This document shows, piece by piece, positions 16,600-27,900 of a DNA stretch of 45,313 nucleotides (its first letter is position 1; each line of letters starts with the position of its first letter). The position numbers and the translations under genes were made by a program. Origin of the DNA: Nitrososphaerota archaeon (lineage in GTDB: Archaea > Thermoproteota > Nitrososphaeria > Nitrososphaerales > Nitrosopumilaceae); assembly GCA_016215465.1 (NCBI GenBank), contig JACRJT010000024.1:1-45313 (forward strand), read 5' to 3'. The notes under the pieces are model-generated. The model made no database searches. It saw only the letters and a list, made by a program, of their open reading frames with translations, and had not been told where the DNA came from.

Positions 16600-17352
16600 A
16601 TGTTTGAAAATCTATGGCTACTCCCGCTTGGTTTTGTGGCTGGGGTTTTGGGCTCTATAATTGGCCTTGGAGGAGGAATAGTAGTAGTGCCCGTATTGAC
16701 AATTCTTGGATTTTCTCATACTGTTGCTTCGAGCAGTAGTCTTTTTGCTGCGTTTAGTAATTCGGTGGCATCTTCCGTATCGTATGCCAAGCAAAAAAGA
16801 ATCGAGTACAAACTGGGCCTCAAACTTGGGCTAATGTCGATTCCCGGAACAATCTTGGGGGCATTCATATCTTCTGAGGCGTCACCTTCAATGTTCAAAA
16901 TACTATTTGGAATAGTGCTGATTGCATCATGCCTGTATCTTTTTTTGAAAAGAAACATGGAATCCAAATCTGCAAACGTGACAGCGAAAATACTGGCAAT
17001 TTCCTCTGGAATAAGCTTCTTTGCTGGAGTGCTGTCTAGCTTTTTTGGAATTGGTGGGGGAATTATTTTTGTCCCCCTCATGATACTTGGAATTGGGATT
17101 TCGGTAAAACACGCAACTGCCACATCTCAACTAATCCTGATGTTTTCCTCGGCATCTGGGATGATTGCGCACTCTTTGCTTGGTCATGCCGATTTTTCAT
17201 ATGCCCTACTGCTTGGAATTGGAGCGTTTGCTGGAGGGCTAGTTGGTGCAAGGATATCTGTAGATCTCAAGGAAAATAGCATCCGAATTATGATCTGCGT
17301 GGTAATACTCGCTGCAGCAATCAAACTATTCATTGACGCAATTGAGTCATAA
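16600..17352 (+). CDS. TSUP (TauE/SafE) family permease
   Basis: A 250-residue polytopic membrane protein with about 7-8 hydrophobic segments and the internal duplication typical of TSUP: GSIIGLGGGIVVVPVL near the N-terminus and SSFFGIGGGIIFVPLM in the middle. Family members export sulfite or organosulfonates or move other small anions. The substrate is unknown. It starts 43 nt after the soluble kinase gene on the same strand. Confidence 0.9.
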   Translation: MFENLWLLPLGFVAGVLGSIIGLGGGIVVVPVLTILGFSHTVASSSSLFAAFSNSVASSVSYAKQKRIEYKLGLKLGLMSIPGTILGAFISSEASPSMFKILFGIVLIASCLYLFLKRNMESKSANVTAKILAISSGISFFAGVLSSFFGIGGGIIFVPLMILGIGISVKHATATSQLILMFSSASGMIAHSLLGHADFSYALLLGIGAFAGGLVGARISVDLKENSIRIMICVVILAAAIKLFIDAIES

Positions 17353-17588: not shown

Positions 17589-18035
17589 TTATTTTGGTGG
17601 CTCTTTTTTAATTCTGTACAAATTTTTCTTTGATATTACAACAACATCTCCGTTTTCCTTCTTTCCCTCAAAATCAATTGTTATCATGCCAAAGTCTTCA
17701 TCCATGTCTTTTTTATCTGAGATTGTGAATTTTATCTTTAGGATCTCCTCTGTGTGCAAAGGCTTGAGGAATCGTGTGTTTCTATTTTCCCAGCTTGCAT
17801 CCCCATCCATTCCGTACAGCAATATCATGTTGCCATAAATCTGACTCAGTCTGGTAAATTCTCCCTCCATTCTTGCAATGATTGCACGACCCGACACTAT
17901 GGTGCTGTATTCGTCGTCATCGAAGATCGTGTTTTTGATTCTTGAAAACGCAAGATATGTCTCCAATTCTTTTTTTGAAAATGTGCAGGTGGAAAAGAAT
18001 TCTTCCCCCACCTTGAGGTCTGCAAATTTCTTCAT
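17589..18035 (-). CDS. MaoC-like hot-dog-fold protein
   Basis: A 148-residue protein with the layout of MaoC/FAS1A-type hydratase hot-dog domains: FADLKVGEEFFSTCTFSKKELETYLAFSRIKN at the N-terminus, then a helix with SGRAIIARMEGEFTRL, and strands around NTRFLKPLHTEEILKIKF. The usual catalytic Asp-x4-His pair is not clear, because the segment reads DDDEYSTIVSG. It may therefore bind acyl thioesters without the standard hydratase chemistry. It begins at the last base of the upstream SDR stop (TAATG overlap), so the two are co-translated. Confidence 0.65.
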   Translation of the reverse strand: MKKFADLKVGEEFFSTCTFSKKELETYLAFSRIKNTIFDDDEYSTIVSGRAIIARMEGEFTRLSQIYGNMILLYGMDGDASWENRNTRFLKPLHTEEILKIKFTISDKKDMDEDFGMITIDFEGKKENGDVVVISKKNLYRIKKEPPK

Positions 18036-19813
18036 TATTCTCTTGTCTCATCGACACAGAACGTTACTTCGGATGAATTTCTTGCAGCATCTGTGACAAA
18101 GTAGTTTAGTGCCTGTGCGATTTTTTCATTGCTTGACTCTTTTCCCTCAATACTTCCTGGTAGAACCAAAAATGACCTGATTTTTGATTTTAACACATCA
18201 CTAAACTCCTGATTTATCGTAGTAGTAAAGGGTCTGAGTGCGCCTCTGAATACTTCGACTCGGGCTCTGTCCGCGCCTGATACCTTTGGACCCGTTGGCA
18301 AATCAGGACCTATTATAACTGCGGTTCCAAATCCATTCTTGTATAGCCTTGGATCTTTACTGCCTCCTGGGATGAACAATTCCAGTGTGGATTGCAACAC
18401 TGTTGCGGGGGTGTTTATGAACTTGTCAACCAAATCGTCCCAATCTTTTCTTGATGATTCCGTTATCTTGAGATTTTGCGGAACACTGCCTGTGATGTGA
18501 ATAATGGTGGATACTTTGCCCATGTTTTTTGCAGCGTTTAGCCACCTCTGCATCTCTTCAGGTTTTTTTAAATTCACAACATGTGAGTGGAATTTTGAAC
18601 TGATCTGATCTTGGTATTCTTTTGGGGTGTTTTCTGAAATAAAACAGACTGCCTTGCCACCGTTTTTCTCCACATGCTGGCCCAAAAACAGTACCCTATC
18701 TGCATCTGACTTGTCAGTAGCATCTATGGTAAAGACAAACACTTGTGAAGTAAAGTCTGGCTGATGAACCATTGGGGTATCCGATGCAATATGTGGCTTT
18801 ACTGGATAGAATACTCTGTCACCTGGAATCACCTTACCGTTTAGCGTTTTTGCGATGTCGTCATCTGCCAAAGTGAGAACTGTCTGAGCTACCTGAGTCT
18901 GTGACAGGAACTGTCTATCTGCAATCATAAACGATGTGTTCTTTTGCACTTTTTCTGCAATTTCCTGTATCTTTGATAGTTGTTTTGTTAGGGTTTGGGA
19001 AATTTTTTCAACATCTCCGTTTTTTGCTTTTGCAACTGTCTGAGCTGCTTTTTTGATTCCGTCTTTTACTGTCTGCTCATTTTCGCCAAGTAGTCCGACA
19101 ATCTCCTTGTTGGCAGAATCCACTTCTGACGGGCTAAGATCCTCAAAACCGCTAACCCGTAAAAATTCGGCAGCAGCTTTTGGATAAACTGTTTTGTAGA
19201 TTCTGTCTGAGTGGACAGGTCCTGGGTTTGTTGCAATTGAGACTATTCCTTTCTCGGTTAGCTCCCACGACATTGCCTCCACAAGTCTGTTTTTTGCGCC
19301 CTGTGCTGCAGTGTATGGGCTTCGAAATCTGTATGGTCTTTGCTCAAACGGCCTTTCTTCTGTGAAAAATGTTGAAATCGTGATTATTTTCCCGCCCGGC
19401 TTCATTACCTTGAGTGCCTGAGATGATGTCCAGAATGTACCTGTCAGATGAATCGCAACTGCACTTTTGAATTCTTCTAGTGGCGCATTTGAAAAACAGG
19501 TTACTGGGCCTGAAACACCTGCATTGTTTATTACGATGTCTACTGTCACGTTTGTTTTTTTCAACTCTTCATACATTTGTGAAACGCCTGTCTCATCGCT
19601 CACGTCGACTCCTGGGAACAGCCAGACCTTTGCGTTACTACCTACTTTGGAAATTATCTCGTCAAGTATCTTTTTTGTCTCTTCAAGTGGCTCTTTACGT
19701 CTTCCTAGAATGATTATGCTTGCCCCGCTTTCTGCAAACAGTTTTGCGACCGTCTGGCCTATTCCGGTCCCACTGCCGGTAACTAGAACGACTTTATTTT
19801 GAAACTTTAACAT
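18035..19813 (-). CDS. Double-Rossmann short-chain dehydrogenase, malonyl-CoA-reductase-like
   Basis: A 592-residue protein. Residues 1-260 are an SDR domain with TGSGTGIG, NNAGVSG, Ser147 and Tyr167, but the YxxxK lysine position is Gln171 (YTAAQ). The NPGPVHSDRI segment follows. A helical insert (about 240-310) and a second, catalytically degenerate Rossmann-like half (about 350-592) come next. The order and several segments resemble the C-terminal half of the bifunctional malonyl-CoA reductase of Chloroflexus, as I recall that sequence. The host likely uses the 3-hydroxypropionate/4-hydroxybutyrate cycle, where malonyl-CoA must be reduced, so a role there is possible but unproven. It is coupled to the hot-dog gene. 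Confidence 0.8.
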   Translation of the reverse strand: MLKFQNKVVLVTGSGTGIGQTVAKLFAESGASIIILGRRKEPLEETKKILDEIISKVGSNAKVWLFPGVDVSDETGVSQMYEELKKTNVTVDIVINNAGVSGPVTCFSNAPLEEFKSAVAIHLTGTFWTSSQALKVMKPGGKIITISTFFTEERPFEQRPYRFRSPYTAAQGAKNRLVEAMSWELTEKGIVSIATNPGPVHSDRIYKTVYPKAAAEFLRVSGFEDLSPSEVDSANKEIVGLLGENEQTVKDGIKKAAQTVAKAKNGDVEKISQTLTKQLSKIQEIAEKVQKNTSFMIADRQFLSQTQVAQTVLTLADDDIAKTLNGKVIPGDRVFYPVKPHIASDTPMVHQPDFTSQVFVFTIDATDKSDADRVLFLGQHVEKNGGKAVCFISENTPKEYQDQISSKFHSHVVNLKKPEEMQRWLNAAKNMGKVSTIIHITGSVPQNLKITESSRKDWDDLVDKFINTPATVLQSTLELFIPGGSKDPRLYKNGFGTAVIIGPDLPTGPKVSGADRARVEVFRGALRPFTTTINQEFSDVLKSKIRSFLVLPGSIEGKESSNEKIAQALNYFVTDAARNSSEVTFCVDETRE

Positions 19814-20272: not shown

Positions 20273-21079
20273 TCAAATCTTTTTATTTAATGCCAAAAAT
20301 AAGCCGTAAATCAGTGCTTGCGGCCTTGGAGGGCATCCTGGAATGAATACATCAACTGGGACTATCTTGTCTATGCCTCCAGTTGTAGCGTACGTGTCTC
20401 CGAAAATACCTCCACTGCACGCACATGCGCCAACTGCAACGACAATTTTCGGATCTGGCATAGCATCATATGTTCTTTTTAAGGCAATTTCCATGTTTCT
20501 TGATGCGGGTCCAGTTACGAGTAAAACATCGGCATGACGTGGAGATGCAACAAAACTAATTCCAAACCTCTCGATGTCATAAATGGGGTTGTTCAGTGCG
20601 GTGATTTCTATTTCGCAGCCATTGCAAGAACCAGCGTCGATTTGACGGATGGCAAGTGAGCGACCAAATAATTTTTGAATCTTGTTCTTAAGATCATGGC
20701 CTATTTCCTCATATGGTTTATCTGAAATTGTTTTTTCTCCGGTTGAAATTTCTATCAGACTGTCTCTGTTTTTCACAGATCTAGCAAACTTGTTTTCAAT
20801 ATTGATAAATTCCGGAAACTTATCACTGCATTTTCCACATGTAATGCATTTTCCATGATCTACTGAAAATTGTCTCATTTGTGATTTTTCAAATGCTTTC
20901 GTGGGGCAAATATCTTCCAACATCTCTTTTGCATGTTGGGATGGTTCTGCCCTGAAAACAATTCTTCCTCGATAATACTGTGGAATTAAAATTTCAGATA
21001 AGGGATCTTTTTGAGTATAGATGCTATTGTCAAGAATGTCTCCTTTATGATTATTTTTGATTGGGTTATGGATTTTCAT
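20273..21079 (-). CDS. Ehr/Hyf-like small subunit with N-terminal ferredoxin (HyfI/NuoB-like)
   Basis: A 268-residue electron-transfer subunit. The C-terminal part (about 140-268) is a NuoB/HycG-type domain with all [4Fe-4S] ligands: C152 and C155 (GSCNGCEIEITAL), C219 or C221 (GACACSGG) and C249 (PGCPPRP). The N-terminal part is a shortened ferredoxin: C78, C81 and C84 in CITCGKC, with C58 (CPTKA) as likely fourth ligand. That gives one cluster instead of the two in HyfH/NuoI. The position of the second motif's cysteine is Phe. It would pass electrons between a soluble donor and the large subunit. Last gene of the operon; it starts on the last base of the large-subunit stop (TAATG). Confidence 0.88.
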   Translation of the reverse strand: MKIHNPIKNNHKGDILDNSIYTQKDPLSEILIPQYYRGRIVFRAEPSQHAKEMLEDICPTKAFEKSQMRQFSVDHGKCITCGKCSDKFPEFINIENKFARSVKNRDSLIEISTGEKTISDKPYEEIGHDLKNKIQKLFGRSLAIRQIDAGSCNGCEIEITALNNPIYDIERFGISFVASPRHADVLLVTGPASRNMEIALKRTYDAMPDPKIVVAVGACACSGGIFGDTYATTGGIDKIVPVDVFIPGCPPRPQALIYGLFLALNKKI

Positions 21080-22719
21080 TAAAGATCATTTCCCGAATAA
21101 GAGAGATCCAAACTTTTGTTTACTAGTGGAAAATCTGCAACAATGTCGTTTAGAACTGCCTGTTCTATGGTGGGCCAATTACAAAATGAGGCTGTACGTA
21201 CTTTGTATCTGTAAATTGAATTGTTTTCTCCCATCATTACCCAATGAAGTGTTTGCCCACGATGGGATTCACAGTATCCGAGTGCATGTCTATATGGTCT
21301 GAGATTTTCAATTACTTTGTGGTTTGATAAAGAATCGGCCCTGAGATCGTCCAAGGTTTCATGTATGAGTAATACAGAGTCTGAAATCTCTTCAACACGC
21401 AGATCGAACCTAGCCAAGGCGTCTCCATCTCTTTTTTGCAACTCAACTTCGTGTTGAATTTGCTTGTAGGGTGTCTTGAATTTATTTACATTCAAAAATG
21501 GATAGAAAGAATACGGATGATCTTTTCTGGTATCGATGTCAATTCCTACACAGCGTGCAGTAATCCCGACAGTCGCTAAATCCGAGGCATCTTTTCTTTG
21601 AATTGTTCCCGTGTTCTTTAATCTGTCAACGAATGATGATTTCTGTCTGAGCATTTCCAAGACTTGTTGAAAATCATAACTGACTTCACCTATTGTGTTT
21701 AGGATGGTATTTTTTTGTTCATCTGAGATGTCTGATCTGACACCGCCAATGATGTTTACGCCAAACAATATTCTGCTTCCGGCGATTTTTTCATTTAACT
21801 GCATCATCTTTTCCTTTAAAATGTTCAACCTTGACGCCCCAAAAGCAAATCCAGCATCAGTTGAAATCCCTGCCAATGTTCCAAGATGATTATACGTTCT
21901 TTCAAGCTCGGCACAGACCACTCTGATCTGTTCTGCTCTTTTTGGGATTTTTAGTTCTGAAATTTTTTCTACAGCTTGGCAGAAAGCCATTGAATTTGCC
22001 ACCGATTCGTCTCCTGCTATTCGCTCTGACAACAATACTGCATCTTCAATTTTCATTTTTTCTGCGAGTTTTTCTATTCCTTTATGAGTATAGAATAGTT
22101 TAGTCTCCAAATTTATAATAATTTCCCCCATTGTACTGAATCTAAAGTGCCCTGGCTCAATTATCCCAGCATGCACTGGCCCAACCGGTATCTGAGTCAC
22201 CTCATTTCCTTCCACTGTGAGAAACTGGTAATCATTTTCTGTATTTAGTGGAACTTTGTTGTTCAAGTCAAAATCTTTTCGTAATGGATGAATCTGATTA
22301 TCCCAGTGCTCATGCAGAACAAGCGGTCTTACATCTGGATTCCCCTTTGGCAGTAATCCAAACATGTCTCTGATCTCTCTTTCATAAAGATATGCGGAAG
22401 AAATTTGTGATGCAATGCTTGGGAAAGATCCATTTTCTTGTATGTCTGCAGTTACAATCAAGAAAATGTCTTCATTTTTTCTTTCAAATATGTAGCGTAA
22501 AACAAATTTTTTGCCAATGCGTCGCTCGTCACTGCACACCATCATTACAAGTCTGGCATCAAGATTGCTGTGAATGAAGGTGCAGATGTCCGAAATGGAA
22601 TTATTGTCATTTAGCAGTATGTGAATTTCATTTGAATTGCATGGTAGAATTTCCGATATTTTGGATTGAAACTGGTCGAGTATTTTCACGGTGAGATTAT
22701 TTTGGTTTTCAGAATTCAT
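21079..22719 (-). CDS. Ehr/Hyf-like large subunit lacking NiFe ligands (HyfG/HycE-like)
   Basis: A 546-residue NuoC-NuoD fusion. The NuoC-like part (to about residue 165) has EREIRDMFG. The NuoD/hydrogenase-like part begins at GHFRFSTMGE. In NiFe enzymes of this family the L1 region reads like R-x-C-G-x-C-G; here it reads RIAGDES (about 233-239). The C-terminal L2 motif D-P-C-x-x-C reads DLSYSG (about 538-543). All four nickel-iron ligands are therefore gone, while the surrounding fold is kept (HKGIEKLAEK before L1, FCNWPT and SLD before L2). The C-terminus stops soon after L2. I start at ATG 22719; GTG 22728 overlaps the previous stop. Substrate unknown. Confidence 0.9.
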   Translation of the reverse strand: MNSENQNNLTVKILDQFQSKISEILPCNSNEIHILLNDNNSISDICTFIHSNLDARLVMMVCSDERRIGKKFVLRYIFERKNEDIFLIVTADIQENGSFPSIASQISSAYLYEREIRDMFGLLPKGNPDVRPLVLHEHWDNQIHPLRKDFDLNNKVPLNTENDYQFLTVEGNEVTQIPVGPVHAGIIEPGHFRFSTMGEIIINLETKLFYTHKGIEKLAEKMKIEDAVLLSERIAGDESVANSMAFCQAVEKISELKIPKRAEQIRVVCAELERTYNHLGTLAGISTDAGFAFGASRLNILKEKMMQLNEKIAGSRILFGVNIIGGVRSDISDEQKNTILNTIGEVSYDFQQVLEMLRQKSSFVDRLKNTGTIQRKDASDLATVGITARCVGIDIDTRKDHPYSFYPFLNVNKFKTPYKQIQHEVELQKRDGDALARFDLRVEEISDSVLLIHETLDDLRADSLSNHKVIENLRPYRHALGYCESHRGQTLHWVMMGENNSIYRYKVRTASFCNWPTIEQAVLNDIVADFPLVNKSLDLSYSGNDL

Positions 22720-22727
22720 AAAAATCA

Positions 22728-24239
22728 CTAAACGTTGATGATCTTGTCTCCAAACATTTGTACGATGTTGCCTGTTAGCTGCCTAAGCGGCTCTGGAACA
22801 TAAAAGCCCAGGATTATAGTCAATGCCGCAAGTATTGCCATTGGGACTATTGAGAGGATCCCGAGATCTCCTCGGCTGATTTGTTTCTTTGGACTCCCAA
22901 AGATCATACCAAGTGAGTGCTTCATAAAACTTGCAAAGATTACAAGAAGAAACGAGATTACGAGAAATATCGCCAAGTACTGACTGCTTGAAAAACCAGA
23001 ACTCAAAATGAAAAATTCACTCATAAAGATGTTAAATGGCGGCAATCCCACTATTGACAATGTTCCAATCAAGACAAACATGCTGGTAAGGGGCATTGTC
23101 TTTATGACTCCTTTGATCTCCGAGATTGTTTTGGTTTCATATTTTTGGCTTATCGTTCCGCTTGCAAAAAACATCAGCGGCTTTGTAATTGCGTGATTGA
23201 CAATGTGTAAAATTGCTCCGTAGATTCCAAACAAGCCTCCAAAGCCTATTGACAACGATACCAAACCCATGTGCTCGATGCTTGAAAACGCAAGCATTCG
23301 CTTTAGATCTTTTTGGAAATAAATCGAAGCCGCCGCAATGCCTACTGAGATAATCCCAATTATCATTAGCAGGGTATTCAAAAACCCATCCCCCAAAACC
23401 AAGTGTCCTATCAGGTAGAATCGAATAATCCCATAAATGGCGCAATTCAATAAAACTCCCGAGAGCAACGCACTGATTGGGGTGGGGGCCTCACTATGCG
23501 CATCCGGAAGCCAAGTATGCATCGGCGCTAGGCCTGCCTTCGTCCCTAGTCCTATCAATATGAAAATAAAACCAATTTTAACAATGTCTGGATCAAATAA
23601 TTTCGCGTTTTTCATCATTACAGTCCAATTCATCTTGTCGTCATTGGAACCTGTAGGATCAGAAACGACATTTGCATAATAATACAGAACTATTCCAAAA
23701 AGTGCAAGCGACAGGCCGACTGTGGCCACTATCAGATACTTCCATGAAGCCTCGATGGCAGTTTCCTTGACATATAGCATAATCAACAACACTGAGACCA
23801 AAGTGGTTGCTTCAACTGCTACCCACAACAATCCCATGTTATTTGCAAGTGGTACGAGTATCATCGTGAGCGCAAACATGTTGAAGGCCTGATAGTATCG
23901 AAGAAGATGCCTGTCGTCCAAAATTCCATTATGATATTGTCTTCCCATGTAGTTGATTGAGTACAGGGCTGCCATGAACACGACACCTGAGATCAGGACA
24001 AGCAAGAGGACTCCAAGAGAGTCCACGTAAAATATTCCGTCGAATGCTTCTATGTGTTTGTTATCTAATACATTTCCAACTAGTGAAAATGATTGTATTA
24101 GAATCAGACCTGTGGCGACCACTGTTATTACCTCGATTCTTCTTTTTGATTTTAGTAAAGTCACCAGAACGCCGCCAACCATGGGACATAGTAGAATCAT
24201 CATGATGTTCAGGTTGTAGCCTGCTAGAAAATCAGTCAT
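22728..24239 (-). CDS. Ehr/Hyf-like antiporter subunit (HyfF/NuoN-like)
   Basis: A 503-residue polytopic membrane protein of the NuoL/M/N and MrpA/D family, about 14 hydrophobic segments. Key ion-channel residues are kept: E143 in WVAVEATTLVSV and K234 in GTKAGLAPMHTWLPDAHSEAP. It should translocate H+ or Na+. The start lies 2 nt after the stop of the HyfE-like gene, and its stop precedes the large subunit by 8 nt. It is the second of two antiporter subunits in this operon. Confidence 0.92.
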   Translation of the reverse strand: MTDFLAGYNLNIMMILLCPMVGGVLVTLLKSKRRIEVITVVATGLILIQSFSLVGNVLDNKHIEAFDGIFYVDSLGVLLLVLISGVVFMAALYSINYMGRQYHNGILDDRHLLRYYQAFNMFALTMILVPLANNMGLLWVAVEATTLVSVLLIMLYVKETAIEASWKYLIVATVGLSLALFGIVLYYYANVVSDPTGSNDDKMNWTVMMKNAKLFDPDIVKIGFIFILIGLGTKAGLAPMHTWLPDAHSEAPTPISALLSGVLLNCAIYGIIRFYLIGHLVLGDGFLNTLLMIIGIISVGIAAASIYFQKDLKRMLAFSSIEHMGLVSLSIGFGGLFGIYGAILHIVNHAITKPLMFFASGTISQKYETKTISEIKGVIKTMPLTSMFVLIGTLSIVGLPPFNIFMSEFFILSSGFSSSQYLAIFLVISFLLVIFASFMKHSLGMIFGSPKKQISRGDLGILSIVPMAILAALTIILGFYVPEPLRQLTGNIVQMFGDKIINV

Positions 24240-24241
24240 TT

Positions 24242-24904
24242 TTACTCATCACGTAGTTTCTCCAAGTTAGCGACGCTCATGCTATCAAATGTGTAGTTTA
24301 TCCTTTGCATCAAAATTGCAGAAATTATAACGCCGATGATGACATCGATGAAAATACCAACCTCGATGATTAGTGATATTCCATGTGTTAACGAAGTTGC
24401 AAACAAAAACAACCCGTTTTCCAAAATCAGCAGCCCAACCACTTGGTTGAGCGTTTTTTTCCTTACAATCATCACAAATATACCGATTAAAAACATCGAT
24501 ATTGATACAGGAAGAAACGCATTAACCACTTTGTCGAATTTGAATGGAAATTGTTCTGTTATAAAATATGAAAACACAACTAATAGTGCAGAAAGTATGA
24601 CTGAAGATCTTATGCTGATGTATGGATCCGTCTCGATCTTATTTTTTATTGCAAGCCCGCCTGTAACGCGAAGAAAGACCTTTGGAATTACTATTGCCTT
24701 GATTACAAATGTGAGGATAGCAGCTATGTAGATCTCCCATATTCCTGTAACAAAAGCAATTATTGCCGTAACTCCTGCCAGTGCAATCGACTGGTATCTG
24801 TATGCATTTAGCCAATCCATGAATCCGCGCCTCGCAACAACCGCAAAGGTAGTGATCAGCAAAATCGCAGAACAAATTGCAAGTAAGTCAAATTGTGGCA
24901 TCAT
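24242..24904 (-). CDS. Ehr/Hyf-like membrane subunit (HyfE-like)
   Basis: A 220-residue membrane protein with about seven hydrophobic segments. The C-terminal half resembles NuoK/MrpC-type subunits (VVGLLILENGLFLFATSLTHG, where the buried Glu of LENG is the typical ion-path residue). HyfE subunits link antiporter modules to the rest of the complex. Its start is 6 nt after the HyfC-like stop and it is followed by HyfF within 2 nt, so all are read as one message. Confidence 0.88.
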   Translation of the reverse strand: MMPQFDLLAICSAILLITTFAVVARRGFMDWLNAYRYQSIALAGVTAIIAFVTGIWEIYIAAILTFVIKAIVIPKVFLRVTGGLAIKNKIETDPYISIRSSVILSALLVVFSYFITEQFPFKFDKVVNAFLPVSISMFLIGIFVMIVRKKTLNQVVGLLILENGLFLFATSLTHGISLIIEVGIFIDVIIGVIISAILMQRINYTFDSMSVANLEKLRDE

Positions 24905-24910
24905 GTCATT

Positions 24911-25861
24911 TTATCCAATATAGAAAATTGTTGTTCCTATCAAAGAACTCGCAATTGCAATGGCAATCAGATCTGGAATCCTAAACAGACGCCACTTGGC
25001 GACCCTGGTTTCAAGAAACGCAATCAGAATTCCAAACAATACTGCTTTTATCACAAACGAGATTAACCCCAATCCTAGTGTCAGTGCGGACACGTCGGAT
25101 GATATTCCAAATGGGACAAAGATGTTGATCAAAAGTGCCAGCAGCGTTATCTGCTTAATTGATTTTGACCATTCAATAAGCGCCAAACTCTTGCCTGAAT
25201 ATTCCAGCACCATTGCCTCGTGAATCATTGTCAGTTCTAGGTGTGTGGCCGGGTTGTCAAATGGCAGCCTGCCTGTTTCCGCAAGAATTATGATGAATAA
25301 TGATATTGCCGCAAAGATTGTAGTTGGAATAAGCAACGGCGATTGTGCTGCAGAATTGACAATTGTCGAGACGTCTGTTCCCCCATATACAATAGCTACT
25401 GAGAGCACCATGATGAATATGGCCGGCTCAACGATGGATGACATCATCATCTCTCTGCTGCTCCCGAGCCCTCCAAACACACTAGACACGTCAAGCCCAG
25501 CTAAAATAAGGAAAAATCTGGCAAGACCGTAAAGGCCCAATATCAAAAGAATGTCGCCGGCAATACCAAACGGAGAATATGCCATGACTACCGGTACAAA
25601 CAGGGTAGCAGTTGTTATTGCAACGAAATTTATCCATGGATTTAGCCTGAATACCCAAGAGCTTTGCTCCGAAACCGTTTCGTCTTTTTTGATTAGCTTG
25701 ATGATGTCATAGTATGGTTGAAAGATGCTTGCACCGACTCTTTTTTGGGTTCTAGCTTTGACTTTTTTCATTATTCCTGTGATTAATGGCGCAAATAACA
25801 CGAGCAGGAATGCCTGAAGCACGCCTAATATGACACGTGTTGCATTAAAATCAGCAAACAT
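24911..25861 (-). CDS. Ehr/Hyf-like NuoH subunit (HyfC/HycD-like)
   Basis: A 316-residue membrane protein with about eight segments, homologous to HycD/NuoH. Diagnostic stretches are GSSREMMMSSIVEPA and RLPFDNPATHLELTMIHEAM, matching hydrogenase-4 and formate-hydrogenlyase versions. It forms the joint between the peripheral arm and the antiporters. The ATG shares one base with the stop of the HyfB-like gene (TAATG). Confidence 0.93.
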   Translation of the reverse strand: MFADFNATRVILGVLQAFLLVLFAPLITGIMKKVKARTQKRVGASIFQPYYDIIKLIKKDETVSEQSSWVFRLNPWINFVAITTATLFVPVVMAYSPFGIAGDILLILGLYGLARFFLILAGLDVSSVFGGLGSSREMMMSSIVEPAIFIMVLSVAIVYGGTDVSTIVNSAAQSPLLIPTTIFAAISLFIIILAETGRLPFDNPATHLELTMIHEAMVLEYSGKSLALIEWSKSIKQITLLALLINIFVPFGISSDVSALTLGLGLISFVIKAVLFGILIAFLETRVAKWRLFRIPDLIAIAIASSLIGTTIFYIG

Positions 25862-27891
25862 TACGACCCAAACCTCGCAAAGATCAAGAGGAGCATCAGC
25901 GCAATCATTATGTACAAAAGGTAGGCGTTTACCTTGCCTGTTTGCATTCTGCGAATTTTTTCAAAGAACTTGATACAAAAAGACGTCGCTGGCAAATAAA
26001 ACCAAAGTTCGAACACATCGATCGTTTTGGATTCCACACTTGACGATTTTTTTACAAATTTGTTGGACTGTGAATGTGGTTCTCTGTTTACTGTTAGGGT
26101 GGGCTTGTAGAGGAATTTGAAAATGGTTCTTATTGGCTGAGACAACGATGCTGCAGTATACTGGGTTTTTTGATCCAGTTTTCCAAATCCACAGTCCCAT
26201 GTTTCGTAAATTTTTCTTTGCGGGTTCTTTCCTAAAATTCGTATGAATAAGTATGTGCCAATTGCAACTATTCCAAGAAGCATAATTATTGATAAAATCG
26301 AAAGATTTGCAAAACTTTCTCCAGATGTATTCTGTATTGAGATTGGATCAAACGGTCCTCTTTGGGGGGCTTGAATGTCAAATGCCAGAGAAATCAAATT
26401 AATTCCTATGAGTGGCAACACTCCTAAAGATATCGCAAATAATGCAAGCAGTGTCATTCCAGCTATCATGGTACGTGGTACCTCAAAGGCGTTTGATGCG
26501 CTGTCCGATCTTGGTCTTGAGAGAAAAGAAATTCCGAAAATTTTCACAGCAGTCACAGCAGCAACACCTGCAGTGAGCGCAACGGGCAGTATTACAATCC
26601 CTAGCAAAACTTTGAGGAGAACATCTGGTATTTGTGAAGACATCATTATGGCTTGCAGTGTGAGCCATTCGCTTACAAATCCATTAAATGGCGGCAGACC
26701 TGCAATCGACAAAGAGCCAATTAGAAATAGGACTGACGTATATGGCATTTTTTTAGCAAGCCCTCCTAGAAATTCCATGTTTTTAGTTTTGGTGCTAAAT
26801 AGGATTGAGCCACTTCCCATAAACAAAAGACTCTTGAAAATTGCATGATTCAGGACGTGAAACATGCTTGCAGTTAATGCCAGTCCTGCTAGGGAAGCCA
26901 AATTGTACGCATTAAACACCATCGCAAGTCCAATCCCAACAAAGATTATTCCAATGTTTTCGATGCTGCTAAACGCTAATGCCTTTTTTATGTCGTTTTC
27001 CAAGACTGCATAAAGTACGCCAATCACAGATGATGCTGCCCCAATTAGCGTAATCAGAACTCCCCACCAAACATATTCTTGCGTTACGGTGTTAAAATCA
27101 AATGTTATTCTGATCAAACCGTAGATTGCAACCTTTAGCATCACCGCAGACATCAATGCTGATACATTAGAGGGTGCAACAGGATGTGCCTTTGGCAACC
27201 AATTGTGAAAGGGTACCATCCCTGCTTTTGTGCCGAACCCAATTAGGGCAAAAACAAACGAAGCGTTTTTGATTAAACTGTTGGAGTTTTCAAGATGTCT
27301 AAATGAATCAAAACTAAAACTTCCTGTCTGAACTGATGACAACAAAAATGAACCAAAAATAAACGCAGTTCCAAAATGGGTCATAGTAAGGTACAGCAAT
27401 CCTGCCTTGAGATTCTCACTTTTTTCATGATCAAAGATCACCAAAAAGAACGACGTGAGTGACATTATTTCCCAAAAAACAAGGAATGAAAACACGTTGT
27501 TGGCTATGACTACCAAAAACATTGAGAGCAGAAATGTGTTGAACAAAAAGCCAAAACTTGTTTTCTTTTTGTGATATTCTTTTGCATATCCAATAGAATA
27601 CATTGCAACTGCAAAAGATACTAGTCCTATCACTAAAATGAAAAATGCCGATATGTTGTCAACAAGAATGTCGAATCCAAAAAGATCAAAGGAACTGTTT
27701 GTAATTGTTATTTTTAGTGGATTTCCGAATAATACTCCCAATGATAGAATTATTTCAAACACGGCCGCCGTCATTGATGGCACAAAAATCAAAACACTAG
27801 ATAGTTTTCCGTGCCGAGGAACAAAGCTTAGGGCTGATCCTGCCAGATATGAAACAACTATGAATTGCAAAATCGACGAATTTTCCAACAT
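25861..27891 (-). CDS. Ehr/Hyf-like antiporter subunit (HyfB/NuoL-like)
   Basis: A 676-residue polytopic membrane protein, first gene of the operon. The antiporter-family core has the conserved Glu (E141 in FWEIMSLTSF) and Lys (K222 in GTKAGMVPFHNWLPKAHPVAP). A C-terminal extension with extra helices and a basic cytoplasmic stretch is as in HyfB/HycC. ATG 27891 has a CAATAAAG element about 24 nt upstream and is preferred; a GTG at 27900 is in frame. A winged-helix regulator gene is divergent, about 275 bp away. Confidence 0.92.
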   Translation of the reverse strand: MLENSSILQFIVVSYLAGSALSFVPRHGKLSSVLIFVPSMTAAVFEIILSLGVLFGNPLKITITNSSFDLFGFDILVDNISAFFILVIGLVSFAVAMYSIGYAKEYHKKKTSFGFLFNTFLLSMFLVVIANNVFSFLVFWEIMSLTSFFLVIFDHEKSENLKAGLLYLTMTHFGTAFIFGSFLLSSVQTGSFSFDSFRHLENSNSLIKNASFVFALIGFGTKAGMVPFHNWLPKAHPVAPSNVSALMSAVMLKVAIYGLIRITFDFNTVTQEYVWWGVLITLIGAASSVIGVLYAVLENDIKKALAFSSIENIGIIFVGIGLAMVFNAYNLASLAGLALTASMFHVLNHAIFKSLLFMGSGSILFSTKTKNMEFLGGLAKKMPYTSVLFLIGSLSIAGLPPFNGFVSEWLTLQAIMMSSQIPDVLLKVLLGIVILPVALTAGVAAVTAVKIFGISFLSRPRSDSASNAFEVPRTMIAGMTLLALFAISLGVLPLIGINLISLAFDIQAPQRGPFDPISIQNTSGESFANLSILSIIMLLGIVAIGTYLFIRILGKNPQRKIYETWDCGFGKLDQKTQYTAASLSQPIRTIFKFLYKPTLTVNREPHSQSNKFVKKSSSVESKTIDVFELWFYLPATSFCIKFFEKIRRMQTGKVNAYLLYIMIALMLLLIFARFGS

Positions 27892-27900
27892 TTTAGCCAC

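Follow-up and report, generated by a model that had tools for sequence, protein, structure and literature searches.

The closest described systems for the protein studied here are the halves of the bifunctional malonyl-CoA reductase (MCR) of Chloroflexus and Roseiflexus, whose C-terminal half (MCR-C) reduces malonyl-CoA and whose N-terminal half (MCR-N) is a malonic semialdehyde reductase. In the Roseiflexus enzyme, the catalytic triad consists of Ser731, Tyr749 and Lys753, the malonyl part of the substrate is held by Tyr743-xx-Arg746-xx-Tyr749, CoA binding and full activity require Arg785, and malonyl-CoA is contacted by Arg799 of the extra domain and Arg1164 of the second short-chain dehydrogenase/reductase (SDR) domain; it has been proposed that the Tyr743-Arg746 pair protonates the leaving CoA thiolate (PMC10470521). 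In ammonia-oxidizing archaea (AOA), MCR activity has been described for N. maritimus, measured in extracts, and papers of 2018 (PMC6038301) and 2020 (PMC6964070) gave its gene as unidentified. Among the markers listed in 2026 for the AOA version of the 3-hydroxypropionate/4-hydroxybutyrate (HP/HB) cycle there is no MCR (PMC12894919), GabD and Asd are treated in a 2025 proteome study as candidates, yet unproven, for steps of the cycle (PMC12542715), and the Nitrosocaldus genome paper reported that the bifunctional Chloroflexus enzyme has no homologue there (PMC5797428). Here, we have analyzed a stretch of 45,313 nucleotides (hereafter, the window; positions 1 to 45,313 of contig JACRJT010000024.1) from a Nitrososphaerota archaeon and characterized the protein encoded at 18035-19813 on its minus strand (P0001). 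It is probably the MCR of the thaumarchaeal HP/HB cycle, a monofunctional, NADPH-dependent SDR enzyme like the C-terminal half of the bifunctional Chloroflexus/Roseiflexus MCR, for which we infer malonyl-CoA as the substrate and its reduction as the activity. In the open-access literature, we found no paper naming P0001 as the MCR.

The open reading frame of P0001 starts with ATG and encodes 592 aa. One Pfam domain, adh_short (short-chain dehydrogenase), was seen in the protein (residues 7-203, E 4e-38). An AlphaFold2 (AF2) model built with 30 AOA homologues (pLDDT 88.9, pTM 0.89) has the SDR strands and helices of a catalytic Rossmann domain at residues 8-196, a run of helices at residues 203-323 and, at residues 357-550, a second Rossmann-like domain of alternating strands and helices without the SDR motif. 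A catalytic SDR domain is followed by a helical insert and then by a degenerate second Rossmann domain; an earlier note, made from the sequence of the window alone, had already read a double-Rossmann SDR with this arrangement here, and the open reading frame, Pfam and the AF2 model all bear it out. The gene and its domains are as follows:

18035..19813, minus strand: P0001, MCR-like double-Rossmann reductase, 592 aa (open reading frame, Foldseek, trees, distribution)
19199..19813, minus strand: catalytic SDR domain, residues 1-205, with NADP(H)-type R38/R39 and D70 (Pfam, residue map, AF2)
18845..19198, minus strand: helical insert region, residues 206-323, located where MCR-C has its extra domain (AF2, hhalign)
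18035..18778, minus strand: degenerate second Rossmann domain, residues 346-592 plus stop (AF2, hhalign, Foldseek)

A longer AOA homologue of ~678 aa (locus L028, 342-2375, minus strand) contains an extra stretch between query residues 493 and 532; it comes from a 70% complete draft and could be an assembly artefact.

The likeness to the C-terminal half of MCR, also proposed in the earlier note, is supported by structure, profiles, phylogeny and site residues. When the AF2 model was compared with PDB by Foldseek, the best match was MCR and not another SDR family: each of the top 25 structures was either an MCR half or the full enzyme (E 1.7e-26 to 1.4e-20). C-terminal halves matched at E ~2e-26 (TMq 0.7) and N-terminal halves at E ~2e-25 (TMt 0.77), the latter with a lower root-mean-square deviation (rmsd). 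The first non-MCR match was 2et6 (E 4e-18), with a poor TM-score (TMq 0.56), and single-domain SDRs matched just the first half of P0001 (TMq <0.4). By profile-profile alignment (hhalign), the AOA family could be aligned over 499 columns with MCR-C and over 443 with MCR-N; the E-values for the catalytic domain alone were 1.5e-29 and 9.6e-26, respectively, and the second Rossmann domain aligned colinearly but weakly with both halves. Among 23-52 candidates per genome, the MCR C-half was the best match of P0001 in all six MCR-bearing Chloroflexota genomes (6/6).

Phylogenetic analysis of the catalytic domain placed AOA, MCR-C and MCR-N in one clade (SH-aLRT 95), which kept values of 97/87 with the shared motif columns and the longest branches removed. 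After this removal, AOA and the MCR C-half were found together in 159/200 bootstraps with an SH-aLRT of only 26, so that the sister placement is not settled. It should be noted that the generic SDR comparison sample was drawn with an MCR query and that the tree program flags the long branches joining AOA and MCR-C. Profiles, structure, phylogeny and site residues all indicate that P0001 is kin to SDR-type MCR, with a slight preference for the C-terminal half, which reduces malonyl-CoA.

Additional MCR-type genes were observed in the genomes examined. In addition to its bifunctional MCR, Chloroflexi bacterium OHK40 encodes an MCR C-half as a separate protein of 689 aa with an intact YAVSK (L144, 121-2187, minus strand), whose gene adjoins an acyl-CoA ligase-like gene. 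Contigs assigned by binning to Gracilibacteria and Gemmatimonadaceae (L052, L059) also carried MCR-type genes; the Gracilibacteria case may be a binning error.

Residue conservation was counted in 41 AOA relatives, and the contrast set comprised 29 generic SDRs and the MCR halves. The positions of interest are:

19448..19450, minus strand: His122 codon, replacing the Asn of the SDR tetrad, invariant in the 41 relatives (alignment)
19370..19372, minus strand: Thr148 codon, equivalent to Ser731/Thr165 of Roseiflexus MCR (residue map)
19301..19333, minus strand: Y161-x-x-R164-x-x-Y167-x-x-x-Q171, the MCR YxxRxxY malonate motif with Gln for the catalytic Lys
19292..19294, minus strand: Lys174 codon (Tyr+7), invariant, Gln in the MCR C-half (alignment, residue map)
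19202..19204, minus strand: Arg204 codon, equivalent to Roseiflexus MCR Arg785 (residue map)

Both the YxxRxxY malonate-binding motif and the Arg785 equivalent are present in P0001. Tyr161, Arg164, Tyr167, Thr148, Arg204, Arg38 (equivalent to Arg616) and Asp70 (equivalent to Asp651 by alignment) were invariant in the 41 homologues. Y161, R164 and R204 are common to AOA, MCR-C and MCR-N; neither the Y161 and R164 pair (0/29) nor an R204 equivalent (0/29) occurred in the generic SDRs. From the Ser/Thr-Tyr-Lys triad of MCR, Thr148 and Tyr167 are kept and Lys is not. The YTAAQ motif of the earlier note, with Tyr167, Gln171 and a CAG codon on the minus strand, was confirmed, and Q171, which occupies the SDR catalytic-Lys site (Lys753 of Roseiflexus), proved to be invariant in 41/41 relatives. 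The Asn of the tetrad is His122 in 41/41 relatives; it is Asn in 27/29 generic SDRs and in all MCR. The classical Asn-Ser-Tyr-Lys tetrad is not kept in P0001, which has His122-Thr148-Tyr167-Gln171, with Lys174 invariant. The replacement of Asn by His122, the invariant Lys174 and the match of YxxRxxY and Arg204 to the MCR substrate site go beyond what the earlier note had described.

A reciprocal swap was also observed at 19292-19303 (minus strand) of the window, where the P0001 family has Gln at Tyr+4 and Lys at Tyr+7, whereas MCR-C has Lys and Gln. A FabI-like Tyr-x6-Lys arrangement (Tyr167..Lys174) was considered and rejected: the spacing fits, but the ungapped alignment with MCR sets Gln171 at the Lys site.

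The distribution of the gene was investigated at two levels. Among 61 relatives searched, it was found in all amoA-containing genomes (39/39) and in no genome of other families (0/18), and also in two more AOA-family genomes (draft assemblies) where amoA was not found. Among 397 Thermoproteota, it was present in 83/83 sampled genomes of four AOA families, always as a single copy, and absent from the other 314/314 sampled. Genes of the HP/HB cycle have been reported in all AOA and as absent from non-ammonia-oxidizing relatives (PMC7845616; PMC7300363). The host, a Nitrosopumilus-type ammonia-oxidizing archaeon with a genome of 1.70 Mb (96% complete), carries amoA and a 4-hydroxybutyryl-CoA dehydratase-family gene. 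Together with literature that lists the step without an established gene, this agrees with the earlier suggestion that the host probably reduces malonyl-CoA in its carbon cycle and that this step is less clearly assigned than others. Because the gene is universal in sampled AOA, absent from their relatives and built like half of a bacterial MCR, P0001 is the best candidate yet for the AOA carbon-fixation step whose gene is not assigned in these archaea, which are abundant worldwide.

In the proposed mechanism, NADPH would bind the first Rossmann domain of P0001, and malonyl-CoA would sit between this domain and the insert; Tyr161, Arg164 and Tyr167 would grip its malonyl part, and its CoA side would lie near Arg204. 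Hydride would attack the thioester carbon, CoA would leave as a thiolate, and the Tyr161-Arg164 pair, which is intact in P0001, may protonate this thiolate as proposed for Roseiflexus MCR. Malonic semialdehyde would be released and passed to a separate malonic semialdehyde reductase. The change of the tetrad to His122-Thr148-Tyr167-Gln171, plus the invariant Lys174, might represent a rewired proton relay for thioester reduction. During alcohol formation by SDRs, protons are relayed by Lys and Asn; the replacement of both would suit an enzyme whose reaction ends with the aldehyde and would disfavour over-reduction. We tentatively suggest, as a quite possible extension of this scheme, that AOA use a third kind of MCR, which shares a double-SDR ancestor with the Chloroflexota enzyme, has a His/Gln proton relay assisted by Lys174 in place of Asn-Ser-Tyr-Lys, and acts on the thioester only, forming no alcohol.

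Several observations weigh against the assignment of P0001 as an MCR. P0001 has another residue in place of the catalytic Lys, and Roseiflexus MCR lost its activity when Lys753 was mutated to Ala (PMC10470521); if P0001 is active, His122, Gln171 or Lys174 must therefore take the cofactor role. The profile alignment sets Ala213 and Asp539 at the positions of MCR Arg799 and Arg1164, but it is weak in these regions, so that structural equivalents of both are possible. With neither the catalytic Lys nor the mapped Arg799/Arg1164 retained, P0001 was classed as MCR-like and not as a family member. The insert of P0001 stands at the place of the MCR extra domain, but no sequence homology between the two was detectable by hhalign. 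The per-domain profile score of MCR-C (89 bits) was no better than that of some ordinary SDRs (4iuy, 92 bits), and kinship by single-domain PDB scores was dropped as an argument. Since these per-domain scores fail to separate MCR from SDRs, the E-values of full-length MCR stem partly from the two SDR domains, and structure, trees and whole-genome best matches were therefore taken for kinship. In addition, the AOA-only distribution fits any AOA-specific function, no other cycle genes were seen beside the P0001 gene in its flanks, and Asd has been proposed for the cycle, with its protein rising under carbon limitation in N. viennensis (PMC12542715).

The distribution and the proposal of Asd for the cycle bear on the possibility that Asd or another protein reduces malonyl-CoA and that P0001 has another AOA-specific role (for example, in lipid, cofactor or polyhydroxyalkanoate metabolism). 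The MCR of Sulfolobales is itself an Asd relative, and from distribution alone, carbon fixation cannot be told apart from other traits of AOA. However, just two proteins of the semialdehyde-dehydrogenase family were found in the host, a canonical Asd and an ArgC/LysY-type paralogue that adjoins lysine/arginine-type genes. The single Asd, which is needed for homoserine synthesis, is nearest to canonical archaeal Asd (best PDB match, 310 bits, versus 214 for Sulfolobus MCR) and was rejected as a spare Sulfolobales-type MCR; together with the MCR-specific site residues in P0001, this makes the Asd explanation unlikely. It is also rather unlikely that P0001 is the acyl-CoA reductase of the same cycle for succinyl-CoA, alone or besides malonyl-CoA, like the dual enzyme of Sulfolobales. 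The chemistry on a dicarboxylyl-CoA would be the same, the YxxRxxY pocket would hold either carboxylate, and the succinyl-CoA reductase of AOA is also without a proven gene (PMC6038301), but the nearest solved relatives reduce malonyl-CoA, and the cycle already has a candidate aldehyde dehydrogenase, GabD, with two Aldedh genes present in the host.

The nearly equal structural match of the MCR N-terminal half, with its lower rmsd, raises the question of whether P0001 could be a reductase of malonic or succinic semialdehyde like that half, and Nitrosocaldus lacks the known malonic semialdehyde reductase, low-identity SDRs distantly like Caur_2614 having been suggested for this role (PMC5797428). 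We consider this very unlikely: the large helical insert is a feature of MCR-C, MCR-N having short helices there, the gene is universal in AOA, and the aldehyde-to-alcohol step of SDRs relies on a Tyr-Lys-Asn relay in which both Lys and Asn are replaced here. Loss of these two residues could also be read as the mark of an SDR that has lost catalysis and serves as a scaffold or regulator, which is highly improbable given that more than 100 positions are invariant across four families and cluster in the pocket for cofactor and substrate, with Tyr167, Thr148 and the NADP residues among them.

Reduction of malonyl-CoA by P0001 is the reading that we prefer. A one-copy, AOA-universal gene with MCR architecture and substrate-site residues makes the gap in the pathway directly testable. 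If the assignment is true, the gene would be a genome marker for the pathway and an example of a rebuilt SDR tetrad, and the enzyme for this step would go back to a common ancestor in AOA and Chloroflexota, whose cycles are nevertheless considered to have been invented separately.

The earlier note had also described the reductase gene as translationally coupled to that of a hot-dog protein that may bind acyl thioesters:

17589..18035, minus strand: gene of a hot-dog protein with a MaoC-like fold, 148 aa, present once in the host (open reading frame, fold, locus comparison)

The one-base overlap of this open reading frame with the stop of P0001 (TAATG) and the MaoC-like fold of its product (Foldseek E 3e-8; 1q6w, 4ffu) were upheld; a link beyond one AOA family was not. 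The two genes adjoin in 28/41 loci, all of one AOA family (0-12 bases apart in intact ones), and no hot-dog gene was present beside the reductase gene in the flanks examined in other AOA families. The Asp/His motif of MaoC hydratases is catalytic, and it is not kept in the hot-dog protein. As an essential partner, the gene was rejected because it is adjacent in one family only; it is partly conserved, peripheral and not required for the proposed function. Possible roles of its product are acyl-CoA binding or stabilisation of the reductase.

Other genes of the window were also noted. A TauE/SafE-type permease gene lies at 16600-17352 (plus strand), and similar permease-like open reading frames adjoin the reductase in several other AOA genera. 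Pfam analysis revealed complex I/group 4 hydrogenase-like module genes at 20273-27900 (minus strand), encoding a NuoB-like protein with an N-terminal ferredoxin stretch, a fused NuoC-NuoD-like protein and Mrp/Nuo-type antiporter subunits. The NiFe-binding CxxC pair was not seen by eye in the fused protein, and, judged from its sequence, the module looks like a hydrogenase-related complex without the hydrogenase active site.

Comparison with known systems shows different degrees of likeness. The product of the neighbouring gene has the same fold as the MaoC-like hot-dog proteins 1q6w and 4ffu, but differs from them in the hydratase Asp/His. The malonyl-CoA/succinyl-CoA reductase of Sulfolobales (4dpk) resembles P0001 in the proposed reaction and pathway position, whereas its Asd-family fold is unrelated to SDR. 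MCR-N shares with P0001 the fold (TMt 0.77), YxxRxxY, the Thr of the triad and the Arg in the GP(V/I)xS(D/E)RI stretch; on the other hand, its Asn-Thr-Tyr-Lys tetrad is complete and it lacks a large insert. Unlike the MCR C-half, P0001 is stand-alone, has Gln for Lys, His for Asn and Lys for Gln at Tyr+7, and contains an insert that could not be aligned, with Arg799 and Arg1164 unmatched. It shares with the C-halves of Chloroflexus aurantiacus, Roseiflexus castenholzii and Porphyrobacter dokdonensis the order of SDR domain, insert and degenerate Rossmann domain, as well as YxxRxxY, the Arg785/Arg773 equivalent, the active-site Ser/Thr and Tyr, and the NADP residues.
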